The notes beneath the pieces were generated by a model. That model worked only from the letters and a program-made list of their open reading frames with translations. It ran no database searches and was not told the origin of the DNA. A program made the position numbers and the translations under genes. This document shows, one piece after another, positions 46,200-63,440 of a DNA stretch of 64,000 nt. The DNA comes from Alphaproteobacteria bacterium (GTDB lineage Bacteria > Pseudomonadota > Alphaproteobacteria > Sphingomonadales > Kordiimonadaceae). How positions within the stretch are numbered: position 1 is the first letter of the stretch; every line of letters starts with the position of its first letter. The stretch is taken from positions 62,001 through 126,000 of the forward strand of contig JABXIS010000011.1 of assembly GCA_013372975.1 (NCBI GenBank), written 5' to 3'.

Positions 46200-46277
46200 A
46201 GCGGGTAGCCCCCGCGAATGCCCTCCGTGGGCGTTTCCTCCCTGAGCCTGGGCCACGCAATAGCGTGGCCTTTTTTT
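46200..46277 (+). ncRNA. candidate small RNA, three hairpins with exposed CCTCC
   Basis: About 78 nt. Hairpins: GCGGG/CCCGC (loop TAGCC), AATGCCC/GGGCGTT (loop TCCGT, one G-U), then single-stranded TTCCTCCC and the terminator GGCCACGC/GCGTGGCC with a 4-nt loop and T7. No reading frame fits. The exposed CCTCC is complementary to Shine-Dalgarno sequences, a hallmark of several alphaproteobacterial sRNAs. It lies in an 800-bp stretch without an annotated gene. Confidence 0.5.
46251..46277 (+). terminator. rho-independent terminator
   Basis: Perfect 8-bp arms GGCCACGC and GCGTGGCC around AATA, then seven T. Confidence 0.88.
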
Positions 46278-46503
46278 GTCTGCCAAAAAAAAATGGGTTT
46301 ATGTGGCATTTTTGCTGCTGTGGATAAATAGCCACATCAATCGCCTGATTGAGGACCTGATTGCCTACATCTGCGAGGGGGCTGCGATACAGCCGGACCA
46401 ACATGGGGTGATAGCATTTCCTCCTGGCACGGTTTTGCGCCCAAGATGAACAGTATTCACTTTTGAGTAGAGTATTGCATAAGCAATAAAAGGTGTCGGT
46501 GGC

Positions 46504-56375: not shown

Positions 56376-56602
56376 GCGTTTCAGGCATCCTGCATTTGTT
56401 GTCGGTGTTTATCCCATAAATGTGGGCCGCGGCCAAATGGGCCGCAGCCCCGTGTGGCGAGCGATCGATGGGGTAATAGGCAGCCCGCCTCACCAGACCA
56501 TTATACGCTCTTTTGGGCATTTCTGCATGTCACATCGCGAAATGTTCACCACATAGTGAAACAGCAATCATCGCAAGGTTTTGACAGGTCCCGGGAAGGA
56601 GG

Positions 56603-56914
56603 TGGCCGGAACGCGGTGCTTGGATGGGTTTCCGCGTCCCGGCCAACGGTCAGTGCCCGAAGCTTGGTTCGAAGGGCTGGTCGTCTGGGTCGCCTCCAAG
56701 GGGTGGGAGGAGTTTAAGCGACCCGTCGTTGAACAGTACCCTCGGGCGCGGCTAAGGGGGAAAGCCGCGGCTGACCGGCAAGTGTCTGACCCTATAACGA
56801 ACGGGCTTCGGCTTTTGGGAATGGAAAACGAACTTTTCTTGATGTGTGGAAGGAAAAAGTTCGGGCACCTCCCACGCCCGATAAGGGGGGGAGGGGCAGG
56901 CGGGAAGGTGCCCG
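56603..56914. ncRNA. array of five hairpins, C-rich loops on minus, GGA-rich on plus
   Basis: From left to right: 56603-56645 (arms TGGCCGG-ACGCGG); a closing helix CGGTCAG/CTGACCG (56647-56653 with 56771-56777) containing 56687-56724 (GGGTCGC/GCGACCC) and 56747-56769 (CGCGGCT/AGCCGCG, 9-nt loop); 56829-56863 (CGAACTTTT/AAAAGTTCG); 56862-56914 (CGGGCACCT/AGGTGCCCG). Stems are nearly contiguous. ORFs across it (plus 56581-57210, minus 56752-56991) are unlike proteins. Transcription direction is unproven; the promoter at 57115 points leftward into it. Confidence 0.5.
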
Positions 56915-57086: not shown

Positions 57087-57115
57087 AAATTACGATAAAC
57101 GTAATTATTGGTCAA
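57087..57115 (-). promoter_or_regulatory. leftward promoter P1 with S24-repressor operator
   Basis: On the minus strand TTGACC (57115-57110), a 17-bp spacer and TAATTT (57092-57087). The palindrome TTACG-N5-CGTAA (57090-57104) occupies the spacer and overlaps the -10. Same architecture as P2 and P3 near the repressor gene. Confidence 0.65.
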
Positions 57116-57196
57116 TATGCTATTTACAAAAATCGAAATTTTTTGAGAGTGCCTTGTTTTCGGAATTTCGGTATATTGGGGTTGATGGAGGGATGT

Positions 57197-57907
57197 GTGA
57201 AATCACTTAGGGTGGTCTTTCTGGTCGTGTTGCTTCAGCTGTGCCTTCCTGGAGGCACGTTTGCTGCTGCCACACAGGGTAATGAGCCGGGATCACCACC
57301 GCCTCTGAGGGTCTATACACCGGTACCAGGTACCACGTCTGGGCCTGCGGGCTTCAACAAGGCGATATCCCAACTGCAGCAGTTGTTTCCCACGCTTCCG
57401 ATGGATGTAAGGCTGGAGCTGGTGCCGGTTCGGCGGGCAATTCAGCAATTTGAAACACTACCTGAAGTCTGTATCTATGATCTGCGTGGCCGGTTGTCGA
57501 ACCACGCCGGGCCGGAAGTATTATCGCGGCAACTATCTGTTAGTCGTTTCTGGCTTTATGTGTTGGCTGAAGTGCATGCCAGTCCATCCTCGCAGCAGCG
57601 TCGGATTGGCACCATTATCGGTGCCGAACTGTTTTTTGATCTTGGTCAGCTAGAGGCTGCCGAATGGGTTTTTGCCTCCAGCTATCAGGGGCTGATATCC
57701 ATGTTGCTGTCTGGGCGTGTGGATGCTGTAACGCTGGGGCCTGGCAATAGCCTGGATTATGACACGCTGCCGGAAAACATCGTTCGCGCCACGGAAGAAC
57801 CCTTTTTATCTCTGAGTGGTATGATCCGCTGTAAGGAAAGCGCCCGGACAAAGGCCTTCATTAGCGCCCTTGATGCGGCCTGGGAAAACACTATTGAAAA
57901 CAACTGA
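57197..57907 (+). CDS. orphan periplasmic solute-binding protein, GTG start
   Basis: A 236-residue secreted protein. GGAGGG lies 5 nt before GTG 57197 and gives the signal peptide MKSLRVVFLVVLLQLCLPGG and onwards. The mature part starts VYTPVPGTTSGPAGFNKAI, continues CIYDLRGR (Cys) and ends GMIRCKES. It is divergent from typical SBP_bac_3 members. The gene sits between the P1 module and the repressor gene (convergent with the latter), so it may belong to the same circuit. Confidence 0.7.
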   Translation: MKSLRVVFLVVLLQLCLPGGTFAAATQGNEPGSPPPLRVYTPVPGTTSGPAGFNKAISQLQQLFPTLPMDVRLELVPVRRAIQQFETLPEVCIYDLRGRLSNHAGPEVLSRQLSVSRFWLYVLAEVHASPSSQQRRIGTIIGAELFFDLGQLEAAEWVFASSYQGLISMLLSGRVDAVTLGPGNSLDYDTLPENIVRATEEPFLSLSGMIRCKESARTKAFISALDAAWENTIENN

Positions 57908-57913
57908 TTGAGC

Positions 57914-58615
57914 TTATTGTGCGGGGCGCGTGCCATGCCTGCGATGAACCCACAGCACAACGGCAACCACGTCATCAAGGCGCATTGCGGTGCCCATCTC
58001 GGCACCCGGCAGAAATTCTGACAAGAGACTGAAGCGCCAGCTTTCAAATTCGGGATGGGGGTTTTCAGGCAGGGGAACCAGCCAATCCTCGCCGTTTGCG
58101 GTTTTGGTATATTGCCTTAGCGTACGTTTGCCGCCTTCCTGCTCCACCACAAGGATTGATCCGGGCACAACGGGCGCATAATGCTGTTTTGGATCAGCAG
58201 CAATAATGAGGCTGCCTTCCGCAATTTCCCGTGCCATCGATGTATCGCCCATGATGTAGCAAAAAAGCCCTTCAGGCGATAGCGCGTCTGGCGGCAGGGG
58301 AACGGATGAAAACCCAAGGTCATCAGGGGCTGCCCCTTCGCGGCCATCTCCGAAAAGGGAACCAAGAACCGGCAGGTGTGTGCTTGTGCCTTCGCTTGCC
58401 TGAGTGTGTTTTCCCAACTTCAGGCTTTTCAAGAGGGACGGGGTATTCATGCCCAGCATATCTGCAAGTGGAATGATTTCGTCCGACTGAACAGCCCGCT
58501 GGCCTTTGAGAATATCTGTCACCCGTGGCGCCGGCACATTCAGCGCCTGGGCTACGTCCTTAAGCTTGAGCCCTCTGTCTTTCAGGGCCGCTCGTATCCA
58601 TTCCTGTGTTGGCAT
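57914..58615 (-). CDS. XRE/S24 repressor (CI/LexA-like), probable master regulator of the local circuit
   Basis: A 233-residue protein: an N-terminal XRE helix-turn-helix (LKDVAQALNVPAPRVTDILKGQRAVQSDE, about residues 17-55) and a C-terminal S24 peptidase-like domain (CYIMGDTSMAREIAEGSLIIA, with the usual Ser). The catalytic Lys position near RTLRQY appears replaced by Arg and no Ala-Gly cleavage hinge is obvious, so autocleavage is doubtful. The -10 of its promoter lies 11 bp before the ATG (MPTQEW), implying a nearly leaderless transcript like lambda cI from PRM. Three operators of identical type lie nearby. Confidence 0.85.
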   Translation of the reverse strand: MPTQEWIRAALKDRGLKLKDVAQALNVPAPRVTDILKGQRAVQSDEIIPLADMLGMNTPSLLKSLKLGKHTQASEGTSTHLPVLGSLFGDGREGAAPDDLGFSSVPLPPDALSPEGLFCYIMGDTSMAREIAEGSLIIAADPKQHYAPVVPGSILVVEQEGGKRTLRQYTKTANGEDWLVPLPENPHPEFESWRFSLLSEFLPGAEMGTAMRLDDVVAVVLWVHRRHGTRPAQ

Positions 58616-58625
58616 GACAAACAAT

Positions 58626-58653
58626 ATATTACGAAATTTGTAAAAAATGTCAC
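58626..58653 (-). promoter_or_regulatory. promoter P3 of the repressor gene with operator
   Basis: GTGACA (58653-58648), a 16-bp spacer and TAATAT (58631-58626) read leftward. TTACG-AAATT-TGTAA (58629-58643), a one-mismatch copy of the operator, overlaps the -10. Autoregulation is inferred. Confidence 0.6.
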
Positions 58654-58672
58654 GTATTTTTTTGGCAGGTGC

Positions 58673-58701
58673 TTGAAAAATAATTACGAATAACGTAAAT
58701 T
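58673..58701 (+). promoter_or_regulatory. rightward promoter P2 with operator
   Basis: TTGAAA (58673-58678), a 17-bp spacer and TAAATT (58696-58701). TTACG-AATAA-CGTAA (58684-58698) is the perfect operator. Its spacer begins AATAATTACG exactly as in P1. It would drive the leader peptide and the DUF1376/DUF6362 genes. Confidence 0.68.
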
Positions 58702-58727
58702 ATTGAAGCAAGAAAGAAGGAGCAGGA

Positions 58728-58814
58728 ATGCAATACATGACGTATCTGATTGGATTATACCCGCACGGAACCAGGGGCGTGCGGGTGTCATCACCCGGCC
58801 ATGGAGGCGCCTGA
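58728..58814 (+). CDS. leader peptide coupled to the DUF1376 gene (28 aa)
   Basis: AAGGAGCAGGA precedes ATG 58728; the frame reads MQYMTYLIGLYPHGTRG and ends at TGA 58812-58814, overlapping the ATG of the next gene (TGATG). The strong ribosome-binding site and stop/start overlap argue for a translated leader that feeds ribosomes to the downstream gene. Not homologous to anything I recognise. Confidence 0.55.
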   Translation: MQYMTYLIGLYPHGTRGVRVSSPGHGGA

Positions 58815-59851
58815 TGGCCGAGTTTCCGGCGTTGCCGGTTTTCACTGACGCCTATCTTGCCGATACTCGCCATCTGACAACAGAAGAACATGGTGCCTAC
58901 CTGCTTTTACTGATGTGTGCCTGGCGCACGCGGGGTTGTGCGCTTCGGGATGAGGATCGATTCCTGGCGCGTACGGCTGGTGTCAGTGCCTATAAATGGC
59001 GCAAGTTGCGGCCTGTTTTGGCTGATTTCTTTCAGATTGAAGAGGGGTACTGGCGGCAGAAGAAGCTGTCAGAAGTGTACCGCAACGTGGGGGAACGTGT
59101 GGCGCGCAATCGCGCAAATGGCGCCAAAGGCGGCCGCGCCCGCGCCGAGCGGGACAGGCAGATAAGGGTTGCGGGCGCACAGGTGGGTCAAGCAACCGCT
59201 AAGGCAAATGCCATGGCAACCAAACCCAAAGACCAGACTCCAGAACCAGAAGCTGCGGCTTCCACCCCTGAAGGCAACATCGCAAGTGAAGACGGGGCAG
59301 AGGCTGCCGTTCCTGCTGTGCTGGCGGCAGCAGGTTTGCGAGAAGGTGGGTCTGACATCAGTTCGGTCGCTGAATGGCTGGAAGCGGGGGCCTGTATAAG
59401 GCGGGATGTAATGCCGGTGATCTTGCGCTTGCGTAAACGCCAGCAAGACAAGACCGGCTGTGTGCCCCATTCGTTGGCCTATTATACAGGTGCGGTTCTG
59501 GAAGCACGAGATAAAAGGCTGGGCGCGTTGGCCAAGGGCCGTGAGCATGCAATGCAGCACCCACCACCGCCCGAAAAACGACCGTTTGACCCCACCGAGG
59601 CGTCGGATTGGGTGCTTTTCCTGGGGGATGCAGGCAACCGGTTCCGGGGAGATTATCTTTCGGCAAACTGGCGGATCGGTGCTGACCACCCTGTGTTCCA
59701 CCCGGCGTCGCTTGGGCCTGACCCACGGGTGCGGTTCAACGCGCTGATCCCTCTGAATATCAGGGAACAATATGGCCCGGCGTGGCGGTGGCTGAAGAAA
59801 CGGCCAACGGCTGCGCATGTGCCCAAAACAAGAAAACGAAGTGAAGGATGA
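58814..59851 (+). CDS. DUF1376-type (YdaU-like) phage replication-associated protein
   Basis: A 345-residue protein. Residues about 1-95 (FTDAYLADTRHLTTEEHGAYLLLLMCAWRTRGCALRDEDRFLARTAGVSA) match the DUF1376/YdaU domain known from phage and prophage replication or regulatory modules. A Lys/Ala/Pro-rich linker (about 130-200) and a helical C-terminal domain follow. GGAGG lies upstream of the ATG at 58814. It belongs to the P2 operon; no helicase loader or primase is adjacent. Confidence 0.78.
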   Translation: MAEFPALPVFTDAYLADTRHLTTEEHGAYLLLLMCAWRTRGCALRDEDRFLARTAGVSAYKWRKLRPVLADFFQIEEGYWRQKKLSEVYRNVGERVARNRANGAKGGRARAERDRQIRVAGAQVGQATAKANAMATKPKDQTPEPEAAASTPEGNIASEDGAEAAVPAVLAAAGLREGGSDISSVAEWLEAGACIRRDVMPVILRLRKRQQDKTGCVPHSLAYYTGAVLEARDKRLGALAKGREHAMQHPPPPEKRPFDPTEASDWVLFLGDAGNRFRGDYLSANWRIGADHPVFHPASLGPDPRVRFNALIPLNIREQYGPAWRWLKKRPTAAHVPKTRKRSEG

Positions 59852-59857
59852 TGACCT

Positions 59858-60412
59858 ATGAAATATCGAATTGGTACCAGAAAGCAGCTTCAGGAGCGGG
59901 GGCTGAAGGACGCAGCGCTTTCCCTGCTTGATGAAGCACGGTGCCGCGCAGCGGGCGGTGGAAAGGCAGGGTGCCTGGAGCGCACTGATGTGTTGCCACT
60001 TTTGGAAGACAGGTTGGTCAGTGCTGCCTGGACCTTGCGACGTCTGCCGGACAGGGAGGCCAGGTTTCTGAAGGCACGCGGTTCCTGGTGGCCAGAAATG
60101 CAGGCCGAAGCTGGCGCTTATGCAAACGAGGGCATGACCAGTTTCACCGCACGCCATCGTGTGCGGATCACAGCGCAAGAGATCGATGTGATGCAGCCAT
60201 CACTGGACATGCTCCTACTGTTGCCCGACAGGGAAGACAGACAGCTATTGTTTTGGGCTGCCTGGCACCAGAATGGCGAACGGCTGGCCCGAATTCCGTG
60301 GGCCAAGGTGCGCCGAAGCCTGGGAGGTAATCTTTCACGCTGGACATTGAAGCGGCGCTATGAGGCAGGTCTTGAATGGTTGGCCGGGTTGGTGTTGTTG
60401 CAGGGTTCGTGA
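59858..60412 (+). CDS. DUF6362-like protein
   Basis: A 184-residue basic protein starting MKYRIGTRKQLQERG, with the WWPEMQAEAG motif near residue 80 and a helix-turn-helix-like end (RSLGGNLSRWTLKRRYEAGLEWLAGL). It resembles the DUF6362-type proteins that accompany phage-like regulators in Alphaproteobacteria. It is co-transcribed with the DUF1376 gene (6 bp apart). Family assignment rests on motif recognition only. Confidence 0.6.
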   Translation: MKYRIGTRKQLQERGLKDAALSLLDEARCRAAGGGKAGCLERTDVLPLLEDRLVSAAWTLRRLPDREARFLKARGSWWPEMQAEAGAYANEGMTSFTARHRVRITAQEIDVMQPSLDMLLLLPDREDRQLLFWAAWHQNGERLARIPWAKVRRSLGGNLSRWTLKRRYEAGLEWLAGLVLLQGS

Positions 60413-60510
60413 TACAATTTGATACCAATCTGCCGTGGCGGGACAGCCTAGGGCTGTGTATAGTGTCCCTGCCGCAGACATTTGGGGGACTGTCGGCGCT
60501 GGGGACATTT

Positions 60511-61257
60511 ATGCGATTCATTTTTTTAATGTTTTTATTCTGCATGGCGAGCGGGCTGCCTGTTTTTGCGCAAGCTGAGACCCGTGGCGCACACTTGCCG
60601 GATTTGAAAGAACTCAAATTGCAGCGCAGCACCTATCCCGCAACCCTGACAGGTGATTGCGCATATGTTGACGATCAATATTCCATGGACTGCAGTTTCT
60701 TTGTCAGCCGTGTGGCGGCCAAAAGAAGTGATGGCCGGGTGAATGACATGCTTCTACGCATGTATAAAGACCGCAGCGCCGCGGAATGGAAAGAACACCC
60801 CATCTGTACAGCACCTGAAGTCCGGGATATGGAGCGGCATATCCGTGTGATGAAAGTGCAGAAGAAGATCTCAAAAACCGAAGAAGACATGATCCGGCGC
60901 GAGTTTGGCCCTGCTGTCGCATTTTGTGCCGATCCAACGCTACCGAAATACAAGGCTTACCTGCAAGGATTGGCAGAAGCTGTCAGCTGCAGTATCAGCA
61001 CGAGTGTTGAGCGGGTGAAGATGCGTTTTGATAAGGAAAATCAGTCCTGGACCGGCGTGTTTACACCGAAAAGCGATCGCAAACCGATCACCGAATACAC
61101 AGTGAAGCTGGATTCTGTAACCGGGCAGGTGGGCCAACGCCTGATATTCATGGTGACCCAAACTCTGCGTCCGCGTGGTGGTGGGCGGCCTCAACAGTTG
61201 ATTTACCGCGCTAAACGGGCCGACCAGAAACATTTCTGCGGCTATGTGGAATGGTAG
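60511..61257 (+). CDS. secreted protein of unknown function, Cys-containing
   Basis: A 248-residue protein with a signal peptide (MRFIFLMFLFCMASGLPVFAQA). Cys residues occur in GDCAYVDDQYSMDCSF, PICTAPE, FCADP, SCSIS and HFCGYVEW; with six or so they could form disulfides. Not similar to the SBPs. The ATG at 60511 follows GGGGACATTT; longer frames upstream run through the DUF6362-like gene. It may be the last gene of the local unit or independent. Confidence 0.6.
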   Translation: MRFIFLMFLFCMASGLPVFAQAETRGAHLPDLKELKLQRSTYPATLTGDCAYVDDQYSMDCSFFVSRVAAKRSDGRVNDMLLRMYKDRSAAEWKEHPICTAPEVRDMERHIRVMKVQKKISKTEEDMIRREFGPAVAFCADPTLPKYKAYLQGLAEAVSCSISTSVERVKMRFDKENQSWTGVFTPKSDRKPITEYTVKLDSVTGQVGQRLIFMVTQTLRPRGGGRPQQLIYRAKRADQKHFCGYVEW

Positions 61258-61312: not shown

Positions 61313-61885
61313 ATGTTATCCAACAGTGAGTTGATGAGTAGTTTGCCGGATACAGATTTCGGACAGTTTGAAACCTTGTTCGCATATTGGTGCCGTTTGC
61401 GTGATGACGCAGGTGGTGTGCCGCCGCGTCTGTCGCTCGACCCTGTCGCGATCAAGGAATTGCTTCCCAATATTTTTCTGATTGAAAGGCGGGCGCATGA
61501 CGATCTGTATGTCAGGTTGTCGGGCACAGCAATTGACGCGCTGTCCCCTGCTCCTATGACAGGGGCCAATTATCTGGATCTGTGTATGCCGGATACGCGT
61601 GATTTCGTGGCCGAAAGCGCCAAGCTTGTGTGCATGCATCCCTGCGGAAACAGATACAAGCGGGCGGTTACTTTCGAAGCTGGTGGCTGTCATGAAATTA
61701 CGACTGCGGCCCTGCCCATGACAGACCGCCACGGCGCGCCAACTTATATCCTCGGGATCATGTCAGCCCGCACCGACTATCTGACGATAGCGGGTAAGCC
61801 ACGTGGCTATGTGTCTGTGAAAATGCTGGAAACCGATTTTTTCGATGTCGGCTTTGGCGTGCCTGAGACAGTACCGTCTATCTAG
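61313..61885 (+). CDS. PAS_5-family protein
   Basis: A 190-residue PAS_5-type protein (FAYWCRLRDDAGGVPPRLSLDPVAIKELLPNIFLIERRAHDDLYVRLSGTAIDALSP, then NRYKRAVTFEAGG and ALPMTDRHGAPTYILGIMSAR). Shares the family ending (VSVKMLETDFFDVGFGVPE) with the gene at 62772 (HIEYLDLGFGVP). No output domain. It is 55 bp from the secreted Cys protein gene. Confidence 0.72.
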   Translation: MLSNSELMSSLPDTDFGQFETLFAYWCRLRDDAGGVPPRLSLDPVAIKELLPNIFLIERRAHDDLYVRLSGTAIDALSPAPMTGANYLDLCMPDTRDFVAESAKLVCMHPCGNRYKRAVTFEAGGCHEITTAALPMTDRHGAPTYILGIMSARTDYLTIAGKPRGYVSVKMLETDFFDVGFGVPETVPSI

Positions 61886-61910
61886 CGATCAGATGTCCGG
61901 AAGAGCGGCT

Positions 61911-62027
61911 TCAAGCCGCGCCCATGCTCCAGATAAATGTGGCCCCCAACAGCATAAAGAATGCTACTACGCTCATCAGGACAATCAGGCCATGTCCCGG
62001 CCGCGCATTCGTGCAGGTTTGCTTCAT
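61911..62027 (-). CDS. small single-helix membrane protein (38 aa), hypothetical
   Basis: ATG 62027 is preceded by AAAAGGGAG with suitable spacing; the frame reads MKQTCTNARPGHGL followed by a hydrophobic helix (IVLMSVVAFFMLLGATFIW). The length and helix fit a small inner-membrane protein. Convergent with the PAS_5 gene, ending 25 bp past its stop. Confidence 0.5.
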   Translation of the reverse strand: MKQTCTNARPGHGLIVLMSVVAFFMLLGATFIWSMGAA

Positions 62028-62272
62028 GAAGTGTCTCCCTTTTCCCCGCCGGAACCATAGACAAAAAAGAAACTCATGAAAAGTAATCTTCTTCAAAAGT
62101 GGGTGTGGCGATGATTTTCCCGTGCAATTTCAGCTTGTTGTCAATCACGCCTTAAATGGGGTTGAAGAATTTCGGAGGGCAAAAGAGTAAAAACAGCGAA
62201 TTTTAACAAAAAAATGCTTGCGCGACCCCCAACAGATATTGCAGGATCACTTTAGCCATAGTGACCGAATGC

Positions 62273-62314
62273 AGCCGGCCCTCAGGATCCTGAACCTGGG
62301 GCCGGCTTTTTCTT
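62273..62314 (+). terminator. rho-independent terminator with long stem
   Basis: AGCCGGCCC (62273-62281) and GGGCCGGCT (62299-62307) close a loop that contains the palindrome CAGGATCCTG; T-rich DNA follows. No obvious gene or promoter precedes it on plus, so it may end an unrecognised short transcript. Confidence 0.6.
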
Positions 62315-62394
62315 TGCCAGATGTTTAGAAGGCCAGACGTCTACAAGGCCAGATGTTTAGAAGGCCAGACGATTAAAAGGGCAGATGTCTCCGG
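62315..62394 (+). repeat. five 16-bp tandem repeats
   Basis: Units of the form GGCCAGAYGTTTAGAA at 62315, 62331, 62347, 62363 and 62379; first and third differ at one base, the last is most degenerate. The period of 16 excludes a coding function. Length could vary between strains. Confidence 0.8.
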
Positions 62395-62771
62395 GGTCGC
62401 CTCCCCTTTCAAGCTCGGTTTCACTTTCAGGGCCCGTTTCCAATAACTTGCCTGATCCTTTGGCGGGGCCAGATATCCCGGGTGTCAGCCCCGGGCTTTG
62501 GCGGCAACTGTGATGTTGCTTGCTCGTGCTTCCCCGCTTGCTGATTTCTTGCGCGAGGCGGGGCTGTCTGGTGCCTTCTTCTTCACCTCCTTTCGGGTAT
62601 ATCATTCCGGCAGACGGCCCGGTGCAGGTGGCAGGAAACAAATGGCCATCAGCGGGTGGCAAATCAGTGCCACTTGCGCTATGATGAAGCCATGGGGGTT
62701 GAGGCCGGTTCCGGCTTCGAATGTGGTGCCTTGGACCCGGTGAATGCGAAAGCGAAAACCGAAAGATATTT

Positions 62772-63440
62772 ATGGCAGGTCCAGCGCCCAAATCAGCGCC
62801 CAAATCAGGCATAACCCAAAGGACTGACCTTCAAGCCCTTTCCTTCCTGCGGGGCGGCGCGCGTGAAACCACGCGTGACCGGCACATCGACAGTTTCATT
62901 GCCCTGTGGCGCGAATTGGCGGCAGACGCCGGCGGCGTGCCTGACAAGGCGGACTTCTCCATCCGCAAGCTGAAGCCCTATCTTACCAGCTATTTCCTCG
63001 CCGAATGGGTGGACGACGATCTTGTCAACCGGCTGATCGGATCCCAGTATGACGACAAATTTGCAAAGGGCCTCACAGGCACCAGCTTTTTTGCCAAATT
63101 TTCCGGATTTCAGCGTGATTTCTTTCATACCTTCTGGCGCCAGCTGGTTGACCATCCCTGTGGTGTCTTGATGGCCCGCACGGTGGTCGAGCCCACGGGC
63201 CGGGCGATCCGCCTTGAAGGGGTGGACCTGCCGCTTGCAGACAGACATGGCGATGTGCGCTTCATTTGCGGTGTGGGCGACGTGCGCACGCTTCATGGCG
63301 CGTTGGTTGATCCAAGCGAGGAACGGCAGGTGTTTATCGACCATATCGAATATCTTGACCTGGGCTTCGGTGTGCCAACATCCCGCCCGGACCCTGAAGC
63401 CTTCAATGCCGCCAATAGCGCTGCCCCGCCTATATGTTAA
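62772..63440 (+). CDS. PAS_5-family protein
   Basis: A 222-residue PAS_5-type protein with an N-terminal extension (about residues 1-35). The core reads FIALWRELAADAGGVPDKADFSIRKLKPYLTSYFLAEWVDDDLVNRLIGSQY, then GRAIRLEGVDLPLADRHGDVRFICGVGD and the family ending EYLDLGFGVP. The ATG at 62772 is preceded by GAAAG. It lies just upstream of another orphan SBP gene. Confidence 0.72.
   Translation: MAGPAPKSAPKSGITQRTDLQALSFLRGGARETTRDRHIDSFIALWRELAADAGGVPDKADFSIRKLKPYLTSYFLAEWVDDDLVNRLIGSQYDDKFAKGLTGTSFFAKFSGFQRDFFHTFWRQLVDHPCGVLMARTVVEPTGRAIRLEGVDLPLADRHGDVRFICGVGDVRTLHGALVDPSEERQVFIDHIEYLDLGFGVPTSRPDPEAFNAANSAAPPIC

Follow-up and report, generated by a model that had tools for sequence, protein, structure and literature searches.

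A probable repressor–operator switch of a gene-transfer-agent-like element in a Kordiimonadaceae genome in which terminase (TerL) and capsid genes were not found

The 64,000-nucleotide stretch of DNA analyzed here (the window; C40:62001-126000 of genome G000, an assembly of 3.63 Mb in 96 contigs) probably preserves the repressor–operator switch of a gene transfer agent (GTA)-like element of the Kordiimonadaceae, left in place after the particle genes were deleted. This reading draws on the distribution of the parts of the switch among 29 family genomes: an XRE/S24 repressor gene occurs in 25 and the terminase gene TerL in 26, operators accompany 22 of the 25 S24 loci, and the same operator recurs at the small-terminase promoter (PterS) of 14 relatives. 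Counting against it, only 15 of 289 genomes of the class match a profile of the DUF6362-like protein that the switch encodes. Our best reading of these sequences is that a RogA-like S24 repressor of a GTA has outlived its particle in G000.

Promoters and genes of the predicted switch

The original prediction placed the inverted repeat TTACG-N5-CGTAA over three promoters, with one mismatch in the third; this was confirmed at 57087-58701, with spacers of 16–17 bp. Allowing at most one mismatch, the window contains three sites (57090-57104, exact; 58629-58643, one mismatch; 58684-58698, exact), each spanning the spacer and the -10 element of a sigma-70-like promoter:

57087..57115, minus strand: P1 promoter-like sequence (TTGACC-N17-TAATTT; -35 TTGACC at 57110-57115, -10 TAATTT at 57087-57092, operator 57090-57104)
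58626..58653, minus strand: P3 promoter-like sequence of the S24 gene (GTGACA-N16-TAATAT; -35 GTGACA at 58648-58653, -10 TAATAT at 58626-58631, one-mismatch operator 58629-58643)
58673..58701, plus strand: P2 promoter-like sequence of the DUF1376 operon (TTGAAA-N17-TAAATT; -35 TTGAAA at 58673-58678, -10 TAAATT at 58696-58701, operator 58684-58698)

P1 reads leftward, away from the XRE/S24 gene, while P3 reads into that gene and P2 into the divergent DUF1376 operon. Transcription from P3 would begin approximately 4 nt ahead of the S24 ATG, so that the S24 mRNA would be nearly leaderless. An ATTG follows the -10 element in all three window promoters and is no conserved feature among relatives. 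Of 20 loci, 18 have a leftward P1 -35 with a score of 5 or 6 of 6. When the -10 offset is held fixed, a -35 score of 5 of 6 is attained at 2 of 22 loci for P2 and at 6 of 22 for P3; the tidy arrangement of P2 and P3 seen in the window is less widespread among relatives. A rightward P1 driving the gene at 57143 was considered and set aside: it is possible in this genome (-35 ATGACA), but a rightward -35 scores at least 5 of 6 in only 3 of 20 loci.

The gene between P1 and P3 encodes the putative repressor:

57914..58615, minus strand: XRE/S24 repressor gene (HTH_3 and Peptidase_S24 in Pfam; phrog_4, transcriptional repressor; start at the ATG at 58615, inferred from ortholog alignment)

The S24 protein combines an N-terminal HTH with a C-terminal S24 domain, the arrangement of RogA-type repressors. 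We take the cleavage columns to be those indicated by LexA, with outside S24 proteins as anchors. Among 24 aligned orthologs (the G005 row was dropped), the position of the cleavage lysine is occupied by another residue in all 24 and the serine is replaced in 4, which makes self-cleavage of the CI/LexA type unlikely; the repressor is apparently non-cleaving, and the parallel with CI/LexA-type families that had been drawn at first probably does not extend to this property. A scan of the single S24 protein against the genome-contig collection returned no match.

P2 is predicted to drive the following genes, of which the PAS_5 gene is probably the last of the operon:

58814..59851, plus strand: DUF1376 gene, first of the P2 operon (PF07120; phage primosomal-protein PHROGs; ATG at 58814)
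59858..60412, plus strand: DUF6362-like gene, 6 bp after the DUF1376 gene (phrog_6836)
60376..61257, plus strand: gene of unknown family overlapping the DUF6362-like gene (no Pfam hit; also in G010 and G017)
61313..61885, plus strand: PAS_5 gene (PF07310)

A DUF1376 gene occupies the equivalent place at 18 of the 25 S24 loci, and a DUF6362-like gene is found at 23; G017 additionally has one on another contig. In G016 and G026, the PAS_5 gene overlaps the DUF6362-like gene or starts 3 bp beyond its end. Many relatives carry repeated PAS_5-type genes in the interval from the DUF6362-like gene to the head–tail cluster (26 members in cluster c0; window 61313-63440).

The window copy of the DUF6362-like protein has no Pfam hit; it aligns with 21 relatives, and the label comes from these, one of which matches at E 0.0039, below the cut-off. 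At E 0.01 the Pfam family is matched in 15 of the 29 genomes, over the cut-off in 3 and in none of these cases in G000. A profile of the DUF6362-like protein matched 15 of 289 class genomes, G000 included. Among 15 loci from the other 14 genomes, all of distant Alphaproteobacteria and examined with flanks of about 1.5 kb, a divergent S24 gene lies alongside in 8 (L083 and L088 recognized by eye, the other six by profile) and TerL in 3. Searching genome contigs with the alignment identified 23 loci, 17 labelled Kordiimonas, Pseudokordiimonas, Kordiimonadaceae, or Kordiimonadales and 6 from bins labelled only Alphaproteobacteria or Sphingomonadales.

An AlphaFold model of the DUF6362-like protein (mean pLDDT 78) gave no fold match at E 0.001; two AlpA proteins and one Q21 antitermination complex among the 50 matches listed, at E 3.2 to 9.3, offer a hint only, and a sequence-profile search of the PDB returned nothing relevant. 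DUF6456, the family of GafZ, exceeded the cut-off in none of the 29 genomes (four weak matches at E 0.01, none in G000; Caulobacter was positive), so that a role for the DUF6362-like protein as activator or antiterminator of the structural genes is a guess.

Head–tail cluster and terminase promoter in relatives

In most relatives, the switch module adjoins terminase, portal, and capsid genes. The original prediction had described a circuit apart from any capsid gene; TerL and capsid are indeed missing in G000, but as a description of the kind this is not supported, given both the adjoining genes and the operator at the terminase promoter of relatives. Proteins of the cluster were annotated in G009 and G004, and include an Sf6-like small terminase (below the cut-off), Terminase_6, an HK97-type portal, an S78 protease, and an HK97 capsid, followed by a connector, tail completion, tail tube, Phage_TAC_11 (described as GTA-gp10), and Phage-tail_3. 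This RcGTA-type head–tail order with the GTA-gp10 family is found in both of these relatives and not in G000. GTA_TIM was detected in none of the 29 genomes by a search in which Caulobacter was positive; the cluster is therefore termed GTA-like and is not filed as RcGTA. We infer that it is GTA-like rather than infectious.

At PterS, the operator is followed by CTTGCACC in all 14 relatives compared (five of the operators carry one mismatch), and a second element, TGCACCATA, is present in 13, G010 being the exception. The operator here is located just upstream of the -35. The PterS of relatives contains two TTGCACC/TGCACC repeats about 20 bp apart, the second of which is lost in G000 and G010; these repeats are possibly an activator site.

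The association between switch and cluster has exceptions. Allowing one mismatch, no operator was found upstream of S24 in G027 and G008, which contain both S24 and the cluster, or in G003, which has S24 with neither cluster nor operator; G007 and G028 contain TerL with no detected S24 gene.

Probable loss of the particle genes and retention of the regulators

TerL was not found in G000, G020, or G003 in the search of the 29 family genomes. Capsid was likewise not found in G000 in a search positive for 7 of 11 genomes; G020, G010, and G003 were also negative. What G000 does retain is an orphan PterS at C40:133711-133760 (L011:15712-15761), outside the window by 7.7 kb and 13 kb away from the S24 gene; it preserves the operator and CTTGCACCCTAA, and cluster genes do not follow. 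As in G010, the second promoter element is missing; the sequence reads TTGCAC-N17-TATAGT in G000 and TTGCAC-N17-CATAGT in G010.

To the right of the orphan promoter lie four genes (clusters d22, d31, d30, and d25; the first three recognized by eye as Kdo-synthesis genes) common to the right flank of nine relatives: G012, G023, G009, G013, G015, G026, G024, and the remnant-bearing G010 and G020. Response-regulator genes beside the scar are common to six of these nine (all but G026, G024, and G020). The four right-flank genes were not found in the G003 stretch, and the G001 stretch ends short of them. Contig C40 (302 kb) is continuous across the scar, which makes an assembly gap unlikely. Partial losses with the switch kept are seen in G010, which contains small and large terminase and part of the portal (307 aa), and in G020, which contains the small terminase. 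Also to the right of the orphan promoter, two giant glycine-aspartate-rich repeat genes, RTX-like by eye, are found at L015:995-8768 beside the cluster flank genes.

Despite this loss, the three regulatory proteins of G000 look intact by alignment: no column that is invariant in the other genomes is broken in S24 (0 of 40), the DUF6362-like protein (0 of 34), or DUF1376 (0 of 58). These proteins break no column in most genomes (18 of 24 S24, 17 of 22 DUF6362-like, and 6 of 18 DUF1376 proteins), so the column test is a weak one; in G010, S24 and the DUF6362-like protein each deviate at two such columns. The branch leading to G000 is 0.508, compared with 0.498 for its sister G017 (S24 only) and 0.883 for G010. 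If the regulators are intact, the switch is either still in control of some target or yet to decay, and these comparisons do not separate recent loss from continued use.

The leftward transcript of P1 would contain a candidate structured RNA:

56585..56835, minus strand: candidate structured RNA in the leftward P1 transcript (fold z -3.10; 73% identical in G017)

On the leftward strand none of 200 shuffles equaled the fold score, compared with 41 of 200 on the opposite strand (z -0.81). The 73% identity between G000 and its sister applies to 283–509 nt from the operator start, and the region was found in no other of the 29 genomes. No Rfam family exceeded the gathering score left of P1, with ten matches below it; elsewhere in the window, a suhB/mmgR small RNA was identified at 46213-46286 on the plus strand (Rfam RF00519, 52.2 bits). 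A loop of the predicted structure holds CTCCTCCCACCCC, resembling by eye an anti-Shine-Dalgarno motif. An AA-N0-2-CCCC element, recognized post hoc, occurs in 16 of 20 P1 leaders (1.9 expected), about 45–95 nt to the left of the operator. In 13 of 25 loci, a profile identifies a small protein family leftward of the P1 place (nine are the profile's own seeds, and one, in G027, is without operators); this profile search did not find the gene in G000 or G017.

It is conceivable, though we regard it as doubtful, that the switch was rewired to a host programme in which S24 gates the P1 transcript and the PAS_5 operon, the particle being irrelevant to its retention. The unbroken columns of S24, the DUF6362-like protein, and DUF1376, a G000 branch no longer than that of G017, the exact operators of P1 and P2, and the structured region and C-rich leader element downstream of P1 would all fit such a programme. 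However, most other genomes break no column either, and the sister G017, whose branch is estimated from S24 alone, retains capsid and pieces of TerL.

Relationship to prophages

A second alternative is that the module belongs to a prophage lineage, decaying or still mobile, as its immunity and early region, with a CI-like S24 protein, a DUF1376 replication initiator, and the head–tail genes of an ordinary phage. PHROG matches to phage repressors and primosomal proteins are consistent with such an origin, as are the similarity of DUF1376 to sequences in 15 phage records, the absence of GTA_TIM, and the losses in G000, G010, and G020. TerL itself, at 56–75% identity within the family, is up to 54–56% identical to phage terminases, which leaves room for a prophage reading. 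We nonetheless consider it rather improbable. Of the 26 TerL-bearing genomes, 24 give a single match, and the right flank is the same in the nine relatives with the cluster or a remnant of it. A tblastn search of 50,697 phage records with the S24 protein found nothing at 1e-5, and the TerS, tail tube, and Phage_TAC_11 (GTA-gp10) genes follow an RcGTA-like order. The GTA-like switch remains the preferred reading.

Distribution of the operator

The window count is not significant by itself: three sites compare with 0.90 expected, and 7 of 100 shuffles reach three. Searching the whole genome and its relatives, as the original prediction had proposed, showed the motif not to be abundant. Four exact sites were identified in G000, two at this locus, one at the orphan terminase promoter (C40:133711), and one within an ABC-type permease gene (recognized by eye), which is probably due to chance. 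Allowing one mismatch, the motif is rarer in G000 than its reversed control (50 vs. 170 per strand), and exact sites with an AT-rich core, summed over the 29 genomes, do not exceed their reversed control in total (56 vs. 59 forward matches). The operator signal is therefore a matter of where the sites lie.

That placement is conserved. With at most one mismatch, an operator occurs in the 160 bp upstream of S24 at 22 of the 25 orthologous loci, at least two sites occur at 21, and the total of 45 sites compares with 0.12 expected from mononucleotide shuffles. These loci are kin, so that 22 of 25 does not count independent trials; the 23 other aligned S24 proteins are 43–64% identical to that of the window. 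On the P1 side of S24, one or more sites are present at 20 of 25 loci (a raw count). Absence from orthologous loci, which would have spoken against the original prediction, is thus not observed. That the three sites are a chance likeness of AT-rich promoters, as the unexceptional window and genome-wide counts might suggest, is extremely improbable and was rejected on the conserved place of the operator at 22 of 25 S24 loci and 14 PterS promoters.

Exact sites with the AT-rich core number 59 in 18 of the 29 genomes, of which 43 lie within 15 kb of an S24 or TerL gene. The other 16 are off-locus (three G014 sites counted among them); the seven of these that were inspected showed no coherent regulon. 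The adjacent S24 protein would be the natural binder of the operators, as originally suggested, and the way in which sites track the S24 gene through the family supports this. It is named as a repressor because it is linked to the operators, and repression at P1–P3 is predicted because the operators overlap the promoters. The same pattern, including the 43 of 59 exact sites near S24 or TerL, is consistent with the original picture of an autoregulated, domesticated circuit of phage derivation.

Discussion

Detailed knowledge of GTA control comes from a small number of model bacteria. In the mechanism proposed here, a dimeric XRE/S24 repressor would bind TTACG-N5-CGTAA and so block its own promoter P3, the P2 operon (DUF1376, DUF6362-like, PAS_5), and the leftward P1; in relatives, it would also occupy a site immediately upstream of the PterS -35. 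Once repression is relieved, P2 would yield the DUF6362-like protein, which may activate PterS or allow polymerase to read through the head–tail genes, a role modelled on that of GafYZ in Caulobacter. The analysis thus predicts an operator, an operon, and a target promoter for a family with no GafZ family match over the cut-off. The series from intact cluster through terminase–portal remnant (G010) and small-terminase remnant (G020) to orphan promoter (G000) also bears on why regulators outlast the particle. A more speculative extension, which we put forward tentatively and think unlikely, is that this GTA master switch, its particle deleted, now runs a host programme with an operator and an activator pair distinct from RogA/GafYZ; if true, the P1 transcript (with its C-rich leader and structured RNA) and a PAS-sensor P2 operon would be under the repressor. 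No paper linking Kordiimonas, Kordiimonadales, or DUF1376 to gene transfer agents was found in the largely non-subscription literature searched, and no word beginning with "Kordi" was found in PMC13236601, PMC9836097, and PMC10883770.

The cluster of Rhodobacter capsulatus, RcGTA, runs in the order small terminase, large terminase, portal, protease, HK97 capsid, connector, tail tube, GTA-gp10 family, and large tail protein, and the order in the relatives is the same. Unlike RcGTA, GTA_TIM was detected in none of the 29 genomes, and the cluster is deleted in G000. The locus also resembles a CI/Cro-type switch in its divergent repressor and early operon, its operators over promoters, and its apparent autoregulation, but differs in the lack of lysine at the cleavage position and of any phage-record match to S24 at 1e-5.

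The closest likeness is to RogA/GafYZ. RogA is described as a LexA-like repressor of gafYZ without the key cleavage residues, with two inverted repeats, GGAA-N4-TTCC, in its target promoter region (PMC9632790); GafZ is described as having a sigma-like HTH and an antitermination role (PMC11150451), and homologs of GafA as annotated DUF6456 (PMC9638019). Compared by description rather than by protein sequence, RogA (CCNA_00080) and the window S24 protein are both XRE/S24 LexA-like repressors apparently without cleavage residues, upstream of an activator operon (a putative one here) for an alphaproteobacterial head–tail cluster. The original prediction had raised a novel circuit as one option; with this precedent, it is not a wholly novel kind. 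The two systems nevertheless differ in several respects. P2 carries TTACG-N5-CGTAA in place of the GGAA-N4-TTCC reported for RogA. Operator sites here occur at the repressor's own promoter and at terminase promoters, whereas the ChIP peaks reported for RogA are at gafYZ and CCNA_02002 only (PMC9632790). Finally, the switch genes are linked to the cluster, unlike those of RogA/GafYZ, and DUF1376 and DUF6362-like genes replace GafY and a DUF6456-type GafZ.
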